From Niastella populi (GTDB lineage: Bacteria; Bacteroidota; Bacteroidia; Chitinophagales; Chitinophagaceae), in NCBI RefSeq assembly GCF_002078015.1, contig NZ_LWBP01000045.1:1-64000 (forward strand): a stretch of 64,000 bases of DNA, given 5' to 3'. Made by a program: the position numbers and the translations under genes. The notes under the pieces are model-generated. The model was not told where the DNA came from. It worked only from the letters and a program-made list of their open reading frames with translations, and made no database searches. Below are positions 86-6,557 of this stretch, piece after piece. How positions within the stretch are numbered: the first letter of the stretch is position 1; each line of letters opens with the position of its first letter.

Positions 86-349
86 CTAGTTAGCAGTTGT
101 ATAGGCAATTGTAGTAGTAGTACAACCTGTCACAGGAGCAACATAGTACATATTAGTTCCCTGGGCATTACATACAGTGGTCGCACTTCCCTGGTCCTGA
201 TCTTGGGTCGTAAATCCTAGTCTAAGAGCTTGGATTGGACAAGTACTGTCGCAATAAATACTTCCTACGTTTTTTGCTTTAAAAGCCAAGGCACCACCTA
301 CTACTGCAAAAACGGCAATGGCTGCTAACAAAACTTTTGCTTTTTTCAT
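86..349 (-). CDS. Small secreted four-cysteine protein, DUF6520 family
   Basis: The protein has 87 residues. Residues 1-23 form a signal peptide or N-terminal membrane segment (MKKAKVLLAAIAVFAVVGG, then ALAF). The mature part is about 64 residues with four cysteines, two in a CDSTC pair followed by two single ones, which would allow two disulfides. This architecture matches the DUF6520 family of Bacteroidota, whose function is unknown. It is the last gene of a leftward cluster but is separated from the thioredoxin-like gene by 161 bp, so it may have its own promoter; I saw no clear TAnnTTTG box there. Its neighbours (thioredoxin-fold lipoprotein, MauE-like membrane protein) suggest that its cysteines are oxidised or reduced by cluster partners; that is inference. 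Confidence 0.75.
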   Translation of the reverse strand: MKKAKVLLAAIAVFAVVGGALAFKAKNVGSIYCDSTCPIQALRLGFTTQDQDQGSATTVCNAQGTNMYYVAPVTGCTTTTIAYTTAN

Positions 350-510
350 AATTGAATTGCTTTTTAAATCAAAAAGCTAAACTTTAATTTAGATAATAGC
401 CTGCTCTTGTTTTTCCAACAATTAAGGCGGCAGGTAAAGCCTCAATTGTGGAATCCGGATTCCGTTTTCAGCATGTAAGTACACACTAATTAATAATTTT
501 ATATAAGCAT

Positions 511-1002
511 CTATTCTTCGATCGCAGACTTTATTTGTTTACTATATACCTGGCCAATAAAGGCCTGCTTTAATAGCTTGTTCTTATCATAAACCGCTAA
601 ATAAGGTACTCCTGGTACTTGATAATAATTACTAAAAACCAATTTGTAATCTATTCCCGCAGTGATGTTTGAGTATTTATTTAGTTGGTAATCGTCATAG
701 AATTTTTTCATGTCATGAAAAGGGTATGATGTAAAAACATAAAAGTGCACATCCTTTAACTCACTCATATTGTTAAGAATAATTTCCATTTGAGCTCTGG
801 AATATGGGCAATAAGGCCCATAAAAAAATAAAGCTATCGGATGGCCTGACGGAATAGTAGCTGTATTCAAATAAGTACTGCTATCAGGCAGAAGTAGGCT
901 AAATGAAGGAAGTGGCTTACCTTCCAATCCTGTTTTTAAAGGCTCCTTACTATAACACCCTAAAAGAAAAACTGATAGCAGAAATGAAAAGAGCAGTTTC
1001 AT
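511..1002 (-). CDS. Thioredoxin-fold lipoprotein (redoxin/TlpA-like)
   Basis: The 163-residue protein starts with a lipoprotein signal ending LLGC (C16), so it should be anchored in a membrane and face the periplasm. The central segment FFYGPYCPYSRAQM resembles the active-site strand and helix of TlpA/AhpC-type redoxins. Only one cysteine of the motif is present (CPYS instead of CxxC), so a peroxiredoxin-like or monothiol role is possible. The later V-P-Y-L segment fits the cis-proline loop of the fold. Its ATG overlaps the stop of the upstream membrane-protein gene by 4 bp (ATGA), indicating translational coupling. It probably acts with the MauE-like protein two genes upstream. Confidence 0.7.
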   Translation of the reverse strand: MKLLFSFLLSVFLLGCYSKEPLKTGLEGKPLPSFSLLLPDSSTYLNTATIPSGHPIALFFYGPYCPYSRAQMEIILNNMSELKDVHFYVFTSYPFHDMKKFYDDYQLNKYSNITAGIDYKLVFSNYYQVPGVPYLAVYDKNKLLKQAFIGQVYSKQIKSAIEE

Positions 1003-2552
1003 AAATTCTTTATTTTCAAGTTTTCTAATAAATTATTTTGCATGATTTCCTGTCTTAAGCTTTTAGATTCTTTCAACTTGCATTCTTCCACTATGAAACT
1101 AATAAGCAATAGGGTAAAACAAAATGTAAAAATGATTGGGAATATTTGATATCGCAATTCGATTGGTGCTGCAATCACGCTAAAAAACATATTGGTAAAC
1201 CATATGGTGATCGCTAATGCCAAAACTCGCTTGCTTAAAGAATTAATTTTATGAAAACCTAACAATAGAATAAAAGCCAGGTAACTGACAACAAAAACCA
1301 CATTGATAATCGGGCTAACTATCTGAAAGGGTTCAGCTATTTCAATTTTCTTTTCCTTATAAAATGTAGGGAGATATTTATTCTTCCATCCAAACCATCC
1401 GGCAGTTACTTGTTCCACACTATCCATTCCCATATTGTAAATGCCCATAAACTTTGGTGGAGGCGCATAATATTTTAAAAGGTTCGGCCACAAATAAAAT
1501 TGCATGAATTCACTTGGGTATTTTTTTATAAGATATCTACCATAGTCTGCATATAAAGGCGCGATCGAAGCCCATTGTCTAAAGTAATTGTTAGCACTAT
1601 CGTTTTGCTGTACCTTTTTGAGATATATTTTCAATGGAGATTTGAAATCCCATAAATAGTAAATAGCTACTTCATTGTCCGGTCTATAACGCAACTGATT
1701 TATAGAATCCATATGCCTGTTGACAATTGAATGGAGTGTTCTGAATCGAGCTGGAACAGTAGCAACGTTTTTTTGTTTAGCATGAGCATATCCATACAAG
1801 GCATTGGCAGCGATTTGCCAGCCCCCGAATGCTGAATACTGCGCTTGACCTGTCTGTTTATAATATTCATATTCGGTAGATCCTATAAATAAAGAGAGTG
1901 GTAGTATAATAAGTCCGATACTTTTAATTCTTGTTTTTATAGCAAGCTGAGAAATCGTAATAATTATGATGCTTAGAAACGGGTAATAAAGAGCATTATA
2001 ACGAACCATGAATGCAAAAAACAAAACCAAAGCATGCACGACCATCAAATATTTTGTCGGTTTATGTAAAATCCAAATCAATTGTGTAAACCAAACGATG
2101 CTTAATGCTGTAAATAAAGCATCACTAGAAACATAATTGCTGATATGAATTACTAAGGGGTTCAGAATATTTGCGAATAGTAAAACCACAAACACCCATT
2201 TAGGAGGTGATAGTAAGTAGCGAATAGTAAACACTAAATAAATCACACTTAATTGCAAAAAGATATATTGTAACAATACCAGGATAAAATGAGAGTTAGT
2301 GAAGCTGCTCACAAACCTCAAAAATTTAGAATAGCCAATTGCCCACATGTTGATTAACTGATTACTCCATGCAGCTTCCAAATAAGAATTTGAATCGGGC
2401 GGCATAAAATTGGGAAACGGATAAATGACTTTGAAAATAGACAATTGAATTGCTATTACAAGCCCAACCCACACAAGAAAGAGTCTGTTTTCTCTTTGAT
2501 GGAGGAGCCATTGATAAAATGGTAGTGTTGATATTTTTTGATTGAACATCAT
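999..2552 (-). CDS. Polytopic membrane protein, putative GT-C glycosyltransferase (copy 1)
   Basis: The 517-residue protein has about ten hydrophobic segments. An acidic motif (PPDSNSYLE, near residue 53) follows the first membrane segment, where GT-C (GT39/GT83-like) enzymes carry their catalytic Asp. It is a clear paralogue of the protein at 3065-4633: both share GYS-F-R, SSD, VRYNAL-YPF and the block LWPN--KYYAPP near residue 355. GT-C enzymes transfer sugars from polyprenyl-phosphate donors outside the membrane, which fits the GT2 at the head of the cluster. No characterised family is recognised with certainty. The gene overlaps the thioredoxin-like gene by 4 bp and begins 23 bp after the MauE-like gene. 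Confidence 0.65.
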   Translation of the reverse strand: MMFNQKISTLPFYQWLLHQRENRLFLVWVGLVIAIQLSIFKVIYPFPNFMPPDSNSYLEAAWSNQLINMWAIGYSKFLRFVSSFTNSHFILVLLQYIFLQLSVIYLVFTIRYLLSPPKWVFVVLLFANILNPLVIHISNYVSSDALFTALSIVWFTQLIWILHKPTKYLMVVHALVLFFAFMVRYNALYYPFLSIIIITISQLAIKTRIKSIGLIILPLSLFIGSTEYEYYKQTGQAQYSAFGGWQIAANALYGYAHAKQKNVATVPARFRTLHSIVNRHMDSINQLRYRPDNEVAIYYLWDFKSPLKIYLKKVQQNDSANNYFRQWASIAPLYADYGRYLIKKYPSEFMQFYLWPNLLKYYAPPPKFMGIYNMGMDSVEQVTAGWFGWKNKYLPTFYKEKKIEIAEPFQIVSPIINVVFVVSYLAFILLLGFHKINSLSKRVLALAITIWFTNMFFSVIAAPIELRYQIFPIIFTFCFTLLLISFIVEECKLKESKSLRQEIMQNNLLENLKIKNL

Positions 2553-2575
2553 TGTATTTGCTTAGAAAAAAATGT

Positions 2576-3043
2576 TTATGCTTGGATAGGAGCTTTTTGA
2601 TCGTTGATTGATGACAATTCTAATCGATGAGCTGATTTGAGTTGTTTTTCAAAAACAATACCTGTAATAGCTAATGCAATGAACGCTGTGTTAAGAGCAA
2701 TATGGCCTTGCCAGGAAAGTTCTCCAATCAGGCCACCGCAACTACATGGTATGTTTTCATTAATATTTAGTATTAGAATTGTATACATTGTGAACAAAAC
2801 CATTAATGAAAGTGATACAATAAATCCTTTAAAACGCCATCGAGGTATCACTAGTAGAACGGTTGCTAAAAACTCAATCCACGGCAAGGTAAAGGCTACA
2901 GGGGTGGCTATCGGAGCAAGTATAGGTGAGGTGGCAATTTGTTCTTTAAAAATGGAATACTCAATAATCTTGCTAATGCCTGTATAAAGAAAAAGTATGG
3001 TGAAAAGCATAACAATAGATTCTATAATCATTTTCTTTTTCAT
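2576..3043 (-). CDS. MauE/DoxX-family redox-associated membrane protein
   Basis: The 155-residue protein has four predicted membrane helices and a conserved CSCGG motif (about residues 101-105) between helices 3 and 4. This is the MauE-type arrangement. MauE proteins are DsbB/VKOR-like partners that shuttle electrons for thioredoxin-fold proteins in cofactor or disulfide maturation. The gene sits between two paralogous GT-C-like genes, with gaps of about 20 bp on each side, so it is surely co-transcribed. Its likely partner is the thioredoxin-fold lipoprotein at 511-1002, and the small four-cysteine protein at 86-349 is a plausible substrate; both links are inference. Confidence 0.8.
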   Translation of the reverse strand: MKKKMIIESIVMLFTILFLYTGISKIIEYSIFKEQIATSPILAPIATPVAFTLPWIEFLATVLLVIPRWRFKGFIVSLSLMVLFTMYTILILNINENIPCSCGGLIGELSWQGHIALNTAFIALAITGIVFEKQLKSAHRLELSSINDQKAPIQA

Positions 3044-3064
3044 GATATATGCATTTAGATAAAT

Positions 3065-4633
3065 TTATACAGGTGTTATTACATCCGTTATTGGACTTGT
3101 TTGGATCTTTCCTGCTTCTATTGGATTGACCACCTGTTTTTGACTTGCCATATTCCAAATCCAGTCAATCAATATTAAGGTGAAAGTGGTTGTAAGTAAT
3201 ATTGGAAATGATTGAAATCGTAAGGCAGCAGAAGATGCGAAAATGGTAAACCCTGCATTTATCAACCAAATTGATCCTCCTAAGAATATTGCCTGACGTA
3301 TTTGGTTGTTTTTTGAAAAACCATTCAAAACGTAAAACGATAATAACGCCATAATCATTACAACATTGATAACACCTGAAAGAATAGGATAAAAATCAAG
3401 GATGTGGATTTCATGATTATTTGCTTTGGTTCTTGTGCTTATCTTCAGAGATTTATATCCAAACCAATCTTTTGCAAGTGGCACTACACTATCGCGGCCC
3501 GAATTGAATGCTGCTAAAAATTCAACTGGTGGAGCATAGTACTTACTTGCATTTGGCCAAAGAAAATAGCGGACGAAATAGGAAGGATATTTACGAATGA
3601 TATATAACCCATAAGATTTAAAGTAAGGCCCCATGCTTGCCCACTTTTTCAATTCCCCTGCAGTAGTATCCTTTTTAAATATTTTTTCTCTGTATTTATA
3701 TAATGGCATTCCGAATGACCACATGTAGTAAGTACCGGCCAAAACAGCTTCGGTAGGATGTTTTTTGACATCCCTGGTGCTGTCGAAGTACTCCCTGATC
3801 ATATTATCCAATACTTGATATTTTTTGGCTACAGGTTTTCTTTCCGCACTATCAACATACCGGTAAGCATACATAGCATTGTTTGCAAACTGCCAGCCGC
3901 TAAAAGGGGAGTATTGCCAGTAGCCTGTAAGCTGTTTATATTTATACGACGTGTAAAAAACAAATAAGAAACATAGAATAGCGCCTGCACCAATGCCCAT
4001 TACTTTCTGCCGAACAGGCAATTTTGAGAGCCAGAATACAGCCGCAGAAATAAATGGATAGATTAATGCATTGTACCGAACGGTGAAAGCCAAAAACAAC
4101 ACAACAGCGTGCCAAACAATTACACGGGTGGATGGCCGGTTAATGAGCCACAATAAAAGAGCAAACCATACCAGGCTTAATGACGCAAAAAAACAATCAC
4201 TACTTATTAAATTTCCTAAATGCCAAAACAAGGGATTAAAAACCATAAAACATAGTAGCACAATTTGTATAACCCTGCTTAGTTTATAGAAATAAAACAG
4301 TGTGAACAACAAAAACAGGGCGCTCGATTGAATAAATAAGTATTGAAAGCTTACCAACGCGGTATCTGAACTGGTAAAAACACTAAACAACCTGATAAAT
4401 CGGGAGTAACCAACCATGTAGGTATTGATATCTAAGTTGAAGTGCGCAGTATTCAGGTACGAAAATGAATCACCATGAATATAGCTGGCATAGGGATAAA
4501 AATATTTGAAGATGCAAAACTGTAACACAATAGCTATTCCTGCAATCCACAATATTGCACGATTGCGTTTGTTCTTTAAAAGAAATTCCTTAAAAGACAT
4601 TTCATACGGAGATATGCTCATTCGTTCATTCAT
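3065..4633 (-). CDS. Polytopic membrane protein, putative GT-C glycosyltransferase (copy 2)
   Basis: The 522-residue protein is a paralogue of the one at 999-2552, with the same topology of about ten membrane segments. The acidic motif appears here as HGDSFSYLN. The shared blocks are SSD, TVRYNALIYPF, SGWQFANNA and LWPNASKYYAPP. The annotated start gives a short hydrophilic N-terminus before helix 1; M5 (4621) or M12 are alternatives. It follows the GT2 gene by 61 bp and precedes the MauE-like gene by 21 bp. By eye identity between the two copies is moderate, so the duplication is not recent and the copies may differ in acceptor or sugar. The assignment is by topology and motif only. Confidence 0.65.
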   Translation of the reverse strand: MNERMSISPYEMSFKEFLLKNKRNRAILWIAGIAIVLQFCIFKYFYPYASYIHGDSFSYLNTAHFNLDINTYMVGYSRFIRLFSVFTSSDTALVSFQYLFIQSSALFLLFTLFYFYKLSRVIQIVLLCFMVFNPLFWHLGNLISSDCFFASLSLVWFALLLWLINRPSTRVIVWHAVVLFLAFTVRYNALIYPFISAAVFWLSKLPVRQKVMGIGAGAILCFLFVFYTSYKYKQLTGYWQYSPFSGWQFANNAMYAYRYVDSAERKPVAKKYQVLDNMIREYFDSTRDVKKHPTEAVLAGTYYMWSFGMPLYKYREKIFKKDTTAGELKKWASMGPYFKSYGLYIIRKYPSYFVRYFLWPNASKYYAPPVEFLAAFNSGRDSVVPLAKDWFGYKSLKISTRTKANNHEIHILDFYPILSGVINVVMIMALLSFYVLNGFSKNNQIRQAIFLGGSIWLINAGFTIFASSAALRFQSFPILLTTTFTLILIDWIWNMASQKQVVNPIEAGKIQTSPITDVITPV

Positions 4634-4694
4634 AAAAACATAATTGAGTATGCAGGGTTTGGAATAATAGTTCCGCTATGGTTTACGTCAGCAA

Positions 4695-5582
4695 TTAACT
4701 TGCAGCTTGTTGAACAGGGGCCATTTTTTTGCTTTCTGCAATAAGCTTATTGTTGAACAAGCCAAATTTTAGAATGCAATAAATGGCTCTGAATCCATCC
4801 CTCCATCCAATCTTTTTTCCTTCGGCAAATGTTCTTCCATAATAGGAGATGCCTACTTCATATATTTTGATACCTGGCACCATTGAAATTTTTTGTGTTA
4901 CTTCCGGTTCAAAACCAAACCGCTTTTCGTGTAAATAAATGCGTTGAATAATAGCTGTACGGAACAACTTGTATCCGGTTTCCATGTCGGTTAAGTTCAA
5001 ATTGCTGAACATGTTACTTAAAAAGGTAAGCACCCGGTTGCCGATACTATGCCAGAAGAACAGGATGCGGTGTGGATTGCCGCCCATAAATCTTGAACCG
5101 TATACCACATCTGCCGACGCGAGCAAAATAGGTTTCAACAAAGTGTTGTATTCGCCCGGATCGTATTCCAGGTCGGCATCCTGTACCAACAGATAATCGC
5201 CGGTTGCCTGGGCTATACCCGTATGGATCGCCGCACCCTTTCCCTGGTTTACATCGTGCTTTATATATTTAAAGTAGTTTATCGTAAGGTTCGTATTGCA
5301 CGATATATAGTTTTGGATTACAGTCTCCGTATTATCCGTTGAACAGTCGTTTACAATGATCACTTCCTTCTCTATATTCCTGATCAACTTTACCTCGTTG
5401 ATGCGGTCAAGGATCAACGAAATCGTCTTTTCTTCATTATAGGCTGGTATGATGATCGATAAACGATTGATAGCTACATTGCCACCGGCTTGTGTATTCG
5501 CTGCTGGTATCTGTGTCTCTATGTTCTCCTCATTTATATGCAACGGTGTTTGCTGATACAACGGGTCTTTTATGGTTGACAT
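4695..5582 (-). CDS. GT2 family glycosyltransferase, polyprenyl-phosphate-sugar synthase-like
   Basis: The 295-residue soluble protein has an N-terminal extension of about 40 residues, then a GT-A fold: LSIIIPAYNEEKTI (nucleotide-binding strand), VIIVNDCSTDNT, and the metal-binding motif VQDADLEYDPGEY. The block MGGNPHRILFFWHSIGN and the MTGYK-type segment (DMETGYKLF) are typical of dolichol/polyprenyl-phosphate mannosyl- or glucosyltransferases. The C-terminus lacks clear membrane helices, as in DPM1-like enzymes. It is the first gene of the leftward cluster, and its product would supply the lipid-linked sugar to the two GT-C-like proteins. The sugar itself cannot be read from the sequence. 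Confidence 0.8.
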   Translation of the reverse strand: MSTIKDPLYQQTPLHINEENIETQIPAANTQAGGNVAINRLSIIIPAYNEEKTISLILDRINEVKLIRNIEKEVIIVNDCSTDNTETVIQNYISCNTNLTINYFKYIKHDVNQGKGAAIHTGIAQATGDYLLVQDADLEYDPGEYNTLLKPILLASADVVYGSRFMGGNPHRILFFWHSIGNRVLTFLSNMFSNLNLTDMETGYKLFRTAIIQRIYLHEKRFGFEPEVTQKISMVPGIKIYEVGISYYGRTFAEGKKIGWRDGFRAIYCILKFGLFNNKLIAESKKMAPVQQAAS

Positions 5583-6131: not shown

Positions 6132-6557
6132 TTATTTTGAACGCTCGACATTTTTTGTCGTTTGCTTTTTTATTTTCTTTAACTGGTCAGACGATTCGTG
6201 GCTGTCATTTAAGTTACACTCCATAGTTAGATCCTTCCGCCATTGGGCAGGTGTTTTACCTTCGTGTTTCTTAAACTGTATATAGAAATTACTTCGATCA
6301 AGCCCTATTGCAGCAGATATATAGTCTATACTGAATTCTGTTTTTTGCAGTAACCTTTTTGCATGATCCATTTTCAGTTTGGTAAGATAGGAATGTATAT
6401 TATCATTGGTAACCGCTTTGAAGGCTGATTTAAGTTGGAACTTATTCAATCCGAATTTTTTGCATAAAAATTCATAGTCATAATTTTCAAAGAAATTCTT
6501 ATGAAGAAAATCGCGGATTTGGACCGCCTTTTCAATGTGACTTCTCTTCAGGTTCAT
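6132..6557 (-). CDS. AraC-family DNA-binding domain protein
   Basis: The 141-residue protein is almost entirely an AraC/XylS double helix-turn-helix. The first helix-turn-helix is around residues 25-50 (YEFLCKKFGLNKFQLKSAFK) and the second around 70-105 (SIDYISAAIGLDRSNFYIQF), followed by the typical KKHEGKTPAQWRKD tail. There is no N-terminal sensing domain. A basic C-terminal tail ends the protein. Its target is unknown. It is transcribed toward the GT2 cluster but is separated from it by 549 bp, and long gaps on both sides suggest it is monocistronic. Confidence 0.85.
   Translation of the reverse strand: MNLKRSHIEKAVQIRDFLHKNFFENYDYEFLCKKFGLNKFQLKSAFKAVTNDNIHSYLTKLKMDHAKRLLQKTEFSIDYISAAIGLDRSNFYIQFKKHEGKTPAQWRKDLTMECNLNDSHESSDQLKKIKKQTTKNVERSK

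Follow-up and report, generated by a model that had tools for sequence, protein, structure and literature searches.

In the methylamine dehydrogenase system, a MauE-family membrane protein is paired with MauD, its thioredoxin-fold partner, and in the described GT-C enzymes Pmt, ArnT, AftB and EmbB, a transferase with a conserved Asp adjoins a lipid-phosphate sugar synthase. Glycocins (sublancin, glycocin F and thermoglycocin) come from clusters that bring a small Cys-rich peptide together with a glycosyltransferase and with thioredoxin-like thiol proteins; the transferase uses UDP-GlcNAc and a protease-transporter is also encoded, according to the available part of PMC12457901. Candidate families of ribosomally synthesised and post-translationally modified peptides (RiPPs) from decRiPPter contain mauE (once mauD) homologues in Streptomyces, and the available part of that report mentions no GT-C or S9 partner (PMC7794033). 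The nearest literature also includes a lanthipeptide review (PMC8358304, available in part) and the general O-glycosylation of exported Bacteroidetes proteins at D(S/T)(A/I/L/V/M/T), as given in the available part of PMC8729774. The present analysis deals with a cluster of six leftward genes at positions 5582 to 86 of a 64,000-nucleotide stretch of Niastella populi (contig NZ_LWBP01000045.1, positions 1 to 64,000; this whole stretch is the window), which shares features with each of these systems.

The cluster resembles that of the glycocins in its small Cys-rich peptide, transferases and thiol proteins, whereas its transferases are membrane GT-C candidates accompanied by a lipid-sugar synthase, its peptide bears a Sec-type leader, and a secreted S9 peptidase is found in its relatives; no transporter gene of the glycocin kind was found in it by gene calls and Pfam, which sets it apart from glycocin clusters. 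Unlike the MauD/MauE pair, its thiol proteins would act on a small hypervariable peptide, and unlike Pmt, ArnT, AftB and EmbB, its GT-C proteins have no PDB or Pfam sequence match and occur with a peptide family as partner. The decRiPPter families belong to another phylum. RamC/LanKC class III lanthipeptide synthetases have counterparts in some related loci, whereas the window cluster has no LanKC gene and its leader and partners differ from those of class III clusters. General O-glycosylation concerns exported proteins of the same phylum, whereas the present peptides are depleted in its motif. No description of the gene set, and no paper on DUF6520, was found in the open-licence literature searched. 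With a confidence barely above even, we read the six genes as a maturation cluster for a secreted precursor peptide, RiPP-like and glycocin-like, in which MauE and redoxin would form disulfides and the GT-C proteins would add sugar.

A recurrent gene cluster

The initial annotation, made from the letters of the window, had proposed a leftward gene order with 4-bp coupling, the motifs CSCGG and CPYS, and four cysteines in the small protein, all of which were confirmed by gene calls. The genes, all on the reverse strand, encode in order a GT2 protein resembling dolichol/polyprenyl-phosphate sugar synthases (4695-5582, 295 residues), GT-C-type glycosyltransferase 1 (predicted; 3065-4633, 522 residues), a MauE-family membrane thiol protein (2576-3043, 155 residues), GT-C-type glycosyltransferase 2 (predicted; 999-2552, 517 residues, with 39% and 37% identity to the other copy), a redoxin-fold lipoprotein (511-1002, 163 residues) and a small secreted precursor peptide (86-349, 87 residues). 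The intergenic gaps in this direction are 61, 21, 23, -4 and 161 bases, the negative value being the 4-bp overlap of the redoxin gene (1002-511) with the GT-C 2 gene (2552-999). The annotated MauE, GT2 and thioredoxin-fold labels are borne out by Pfam scores of 102.6 bits (MauE, PF07291), 109.8 bits (Glycos_transf_2) and 29.2 bits (Thioredoxin_2), the cut-off being 27 bits for both MauE and Thioredoxin_2. Base 1 of the window is the contig end, and anything downstream of the peptide gene, an S9 gene included, falls outside.

The gene set is one copy of a recurrent, conserved cluster. Relatives of the first GT-C protein occur at three places in the same genome, namely the window, contig C12 (locus L033) and contig C1 (L032). 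The C12 locus repeats the window order (GT2 cut by the contig end, GT-C, MauE, GT-C, redoxin and peptide) and carries an S9-peptidase gene on the opposite strand. The C1 locus holds six GT-C genes, two GT2 genes, MauE, redoxin, S9 and peptide; its six GT-C genes lie in one stretch (L032:8153-18120), five of them consecutively. The 8.6-Mb genome contains ten MauE matches, nine of them above the cut-off, and three more MauE genes (on C228, C123 and C207) are neighboured by genes for small secreted proteins with Cys, and the flanks examined hold no GT-C gene.

A relative of the first GT-C protein at E 1e-10 is present in 26 of 195 Chitinophagaceae genomes, and the GT-C profile found a match in 3 of 395 genomes of a phylum sample, the window genome included. 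The compared set comprises 81 GT-C loci, three from the same genome and 78 named loci (L087-L164) that are the best-scoring of 216 relatives, so that proteins closely related to the window GT-C are over-represented. The named loci are mostly from Niastella, Chitinophaga and Longitalea, with others from Puia, Paraflavitalea, Deminuibacter, Flavitalea and several metagenome-assembled genomes (MAGs), and single loci from Olivibacter, Pedobacter and a Mucilaginibacter MAG. A family sample (L044-L086) overlaps the named set (e.g., L059 is L153, L060 is L155 and L048 is L094).

Among the 81 loci, a peptide is found in 72, redoxin in 70, S9 in 57, a flavoprotein resembling UDP-galactopyranose mutase (UGM) in 42, MauE in 35, GT2 in 23 and LanKC in 9, where absences may be undercounted as the redoxin, S9, LanKC, flavin (FAD) and MauE models were built from these same loci. 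A frequent order is donor gene, GT-C, MauE, redoxin, at least one peptide, and S9. Every one of the 70 redoxin-bearing loci has a GT-C gene no more than 1 kb from redoxin, and in 66 of them the two share a strand. Of 64 loci, 50 have their nearest peptide at most 1 kb from redoxin, and in this close GT-C clade the gap between peptide and nearest GT-C gene has a median of 730 bases, with both on the same strand in 65 of 72. Of 56 loci, 46 have their nearest S9 gene on the strand opposite to the peptide, and in 50 the distance is no more than 1 kb; among 74 distinct S9 proteins longer than 700 residues, GxSxGG occurs in 58 and a hydrophobic N-terminus, by a simple pattern, in 63. In view of the recurrence across the 81 loci, a chance grouping of the genes was rejected.

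The peptide family and its thiol partners

The window peptide has a conserved leader ending in GALAFKAK, with an A-L-A signal-peptidase-like site placed by eye, followed by a Thr-rich part that carries the four Cys. Its relatives were found with a leader-only profile, and peptides longer than 125 residues and leader matches with E of at least 0.01 were left out of the Cys counts. Mean identity over 139 distinct peptides (3000 sampled pairs) is 0.45 in the 26-residue leader, a figure inflated by the leader-based selection, as compared to 0.25 in the mature part, with shuffled values of 0.20 and 0.225, respectively; the family thus displays the conserved leader and variable core that are a hallmark of RiPPs. 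The mature part is 18.9% Thr, as compared to 5.8% in proteins longer than 300 residues. The number of mature Cys is even in 133 of 139 peptides and, after dereplication at 70%, in 112 of 116 (none in 7, two in 56, three in 4, four in 39 and six in 10), whereas nine other residues are odd in 50 to 68 of the 116. The motif [FYLI]CT is enriched, with 54 occurrences against 14.6 expected from shuffles.

These data also bear on the view that the genes form a general envelope redox and glycan patch, in which the small proteins would be unprocessed structural surface proteins. No immunity or transporter gene was seen among the Pfam matches made, which included no systematic search for them, and SusC-, SusD- and FecR-like genes, judged by size and opening sequence, flank many MauE/DUF6520 loci, both in keeping with that view; conserved leaders joined to near-random mature parts, tandem copies (L047 has eight leader matches) and the proximity of an S9 gene instead fit processed, variable peptides, and we consider such a patch unlikely.

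The initial annotation had placed the small protein in DUF6520 (PF20130), an assignment that was dropped, as the match covers residues 1-40 at 17.7 bits against a gathering score of 25.4 bits. It had also named beforehand the neighbourhoods of DUF6520 genes as evidence that could count against its proposal. These were surveyed at 39 Chitinophagaceae loci above the cut-off (37 in one neighbour count, with L034 and L060 examined separately) and at 20 loci elsewhere in the phylum, taken from 30 places outside the family and most of one family. MauE and S9 were sought with models built from the compared loci, and their absences may be undercounted here as well. The MauE part of the expectation held, with MauE within 1.5 kb in 48 of 59 loci (29 of 39 in the family and 19 of 20 elsewhere), and the GT-C part did not, as a GT-C gene is near DUF6520 in one of 59 (L060). 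Among the 37 family loci, MauE lies within 1.5 kb in 28, and neither GT-C nor S9 lies within 6 kb in any; the distance to MauE is 0.8 kb in L034 and about 2.8 kb in L060, which also has LanKC and a UGM-GT-C fusion alongside. The 20 loci elsewhere have S9 within 6 kb in 14 and GT-C in none, and in 14 of them (L204-L216 and L219) MauE is 495 to 513 residues long, with a C-terminal extension of about 370 residues, and stands beside DUF6520 and S9 genes; the extension gave no Pfam match in the two tested. The main peptide partner of GT-C is a sister family with the DUF6520 leader in common. By the neighbour counts, the broader system consists of MauE and a peptide, frequently joined by S9 in other families, and GT-C is an addition in the relatives of the window.

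The thiol proteins are well conserved. C100 and C102 of MauE are kept in 96% of 68 relatives, and Cys65 and Pro133 of redoxin, the latter presumably the cis-Pro, in 100% of 71. The lipobox-type Cys16 is present in 90% of the redoxin alignment, and a simple lipobox pattern fits 42 of 71. The CPYS form of the redoxin motif occurs also in L088, L092, L097, L101, L107, L133, L143, L149 and L151. MauE and/or redoxin is found in 66 of 67 loci with peptides of at least two Cys (the exception is L116), as compared to three of the five loci whose peptides all lack Cys (Fisher p 0.011); furthermore, three Cys-free peptide loci of the family sample (L044, L059 and L062) have neither. The even Cys numbers and the linkage to MauE and redoxin fit disulfide formation, and oxidation of the peptide Cys by these two proteins is likely. 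Of the annotated view of a unit that acts on the small protein or another exported target, the conserved unit and the peptide as probable substrate stand, and its sugar part is a matter of inference. Support is good both for the cluster and for the peptide as its substrate.

The predicted sugar route

Neither of the two proteins of about 520 residues has a Pfam or NCBIfam match, and a GT-C profile search of PDB sequences gave no match. The AlphaFold model of GT-C 1 has a mean pLDDT (predicted local distance difference test score) of 92.8, and among its 17 top-ranked Foldseek matches 13 have titles that name GT-C enzymes or oligosaccharyltransferases; chains of oligosaccharyltransferase, ALG3, ArnT, Pmt4, EmbB, AftB and PglB are among the top matches. 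The other four (8b6l_I, 8imx_U, 9n9j_I and 6ftg_5) belong to complexes holding a GT-C-fold subunit, presumably the chain matched. Asp55, which follows the first membrane helix and probably lies on the outer-loop side, is kept in 96% of 47 proteins, and Asp146 in 100%. The annotated GT-C likeness of both proteins is therefore supported by the AlphaFold model and Foldseek, and they are predicted to be GT-C-type transferases.

The best PDB match of GT2 is dolichol monophosphate mannose synthase (E 4.4e-13), and GT2 reaches the cut-off of none of the 25 NCBIfam models listed. The UGM-like flavoprotein is fused to GT-C in 36 of the 42 loci that have it, and the flavoprotein of L056, the one example tested, matches UDP-galactopyranose mutase. 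Fusions, most of about 1030-1110 residues, were noted in 36 of the 78 named loci and also in L047, L054, L055, L056, L059, L060 and L062. The pairing of GT-C with a UGM-like protein suggests a furanosyl lipid donor. GT2 and the UGM-like protein occur together in only two of 81 loci (Fisher 8e-7); when kinship is counted, about 3.5 informative pairs are left, all opposite, and the sign test is not significant. This pattern points to two possible origins of the donor, GT2 or the UGM-like protein, one of which may give a furanose.

General Bacteroidetes O-glycosylation was rejected as the sole route, since its motif D(S/T)(A/I/L/V/M/T) occurs 5 times in the peptides against 26.5 expected. The pairs E[ST] and N[ST] and the motif Q[ST][AILVMT] are depleted as well, and the loss of the motif may thus partly reflect avoidance of polar residues before Ser/Thr. 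Glycosylation of the peptide by the GT-C proteins is plausible, with a slight lean towards the probable side.

Proposed maturation, alternatives and meaning

As we envisage it, the peptide (86-349) would be exported by its Sec-type leader, and MauE and the lipoprotein redoxin would oxidise its four Cys to two disulfides outside the inner membrane. In the cytoplasm, GT2 would load a sugar onto polyprenyl phosphate, and both GT-C proteins would move the lipid-linked sugar to the peptide on the outer face, most likely onto Thr. Trimming would fall to a secreted S9 peptidase, whose gene lies close to the peptides of related loci, and the product may serve as a bacteriocin, signal or surface peptide; the order of these steps is likewise conjectural.

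Several observations weigh against this scheme. The CPYS motif of the window redoxin has Ser in place of the second active-site Cys, which is present in 86% of 71 relatives, and oxidation in the window cluster may therefore fall chiefly to MauE, or the redoxin could be a one-thiol isomerase; both are guesses. Cys-free peptides occur in loci that have redoxin or MauE (L108, L110 and L156, and L057 with redoxin), the redoxin of L108 and L110 being on the other strand, upstream of the GT-C gene, and two-Cys peptides occur without MauE or redoxin in L116, L064 and L071. The association of Cys with the redox genes is not significant once kinship is counted, with three independent pairs. Five of 22 listed peptides from DUF6520/MauE loci, which look alike, have five Cys, so that Cys parity has exceptions there. 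Foldseek gives E values of 0.015 to 0.18 for its first 17 matches, no match reaching 0.001, with TM-scores of at most 0.45, and unrelated membrane proteins are mixed in from rank 18. The structure model of the peptide is poor (pLDDT 54.6) and was not used.

To these is added the finding that 24 of 43 family-sample GT-C loci have no leader peptide within 6 kb, several of them being beside a UGM-like gene, which indicates that GT-C also serves elsewhere. An alternative is that MauE and redoxin oxidise the peptide while GT2 and GT-C glycosylate lipid A, a surface polysaccharide or other proteins, the two activities sharing the envelope assembly of one export product. The DUF6520/MauE loci, which have no GT-C in 57 cases with L060 as the exception, agree with such a division; the close GT-C clade, with its leader peptides in 72 of 81 loci, short gaps and shared strand, and the extreme Thr-richness of the mature parts, speak against it. 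We regard this alternative as possible and rather doubtful.

The LanKC genes raise another possibility, namely a RiPP precursor peptide akin to class III lanthipeptides, in which LanKC thioethers are central and GT-C, MauE and S9 are tailoring enzymes, the window having lost LanKC or using one encoded elsewhere. All nine LanKC-like genes of the 81 loci (L088 of Chitinophaga rupis, L102, L128, L143, L155, L157, L160, L161 and L163) are within 1 kb of a GT-C gene on the same strand, and the two-Cys peptides of L064 and L071, in the family sample, come with LanKC and without MauE or redoxin. Pfam finds RamC_N, kinase and LanC-like domains in the LanKC of L044, L088 and L157, and kinase and LanC-like domains in that of L064. 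On the other side, 72 of 81 loci have no LanKC, none is in the window cluster, and the leaders resemble Sec signals, at odds with the expected cytoplasmic site of LanKC action; a lanthipeptide origin is hence judged quite improbable. LanKC-like genes near GT-C were also noted in L044, L060, L063, L064, L067, L071 and L074.

The related loci extend the initial annotation by the S9 gene, the tandem hypervariable peptides, the UGM-like fusion and the LanKC genes. A role in anti-phage defence was also considered and rejected, PADLOC giving no match for five window proteins (GT2 was not among them); PADLOC matches to the LanKC of L088 are confined to its kinase stretch. Upstream of the cluster lies a small AraC-type helix-turn-helix gene (6132-6557, reverse strand; Pfam), whose tie to the cluster is a guess; similar small genes stand near some related clusters, and that of the window was not grouped with these. 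An outer-membrane beta-barrel gene (OMP_b-brl_3, Pfam; L032:791-3481) has counterparts of 870-910 residues, judged by opening sequence alone, in L115, L126-L128, L130-L132, L137 and L143, and is a possible exit or receptor. Genes of about 800-900 residues resembling glycoside hydrolase family 2 (GH2) lie near GT-C in L112, L114, L116-L118, L121, L128, L133 and L134, with further GH2-like genes in L137, L141, L147, L150, L153, L159 and L161; the label reflects likeness of the opening sequence, except for L054:1516-3903, where Pfam gives GH2.

More broadly, and as a tentative proposal that we hold to be possible but somewhat unlikely, the clusters may represent a new RiPP-like class matured outside the Bacteroidota inner membrane, with a shared Sec-type leader and hypervariable Thr-rich peptides. 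In such a class, GT-C would act on Thr next to Cys, with either MauE/redoxin disulfides or LanKC thioethers, and the donor would come from a GT2 like dolichol monophosphate mannose synthase or from a GT-C-fused UGM-like flavoprotein (furanosyl). If the maturation scheme is true, Chitinophagaceae and their relatives would secrete many undescribed peptides that are disulfide-bonded and glycosylated by membrane enzymes using lipid-linked sugars, a route that was not found for small peptides in the literature searched. DUF6520 and its sister family would gain a role as MauE substrates, MauE would gain a job beyond methylamine dehydrogenase, and the clusters would supply glycosylated peptides, and GT-C enzymes that accept peptides, from a new source.

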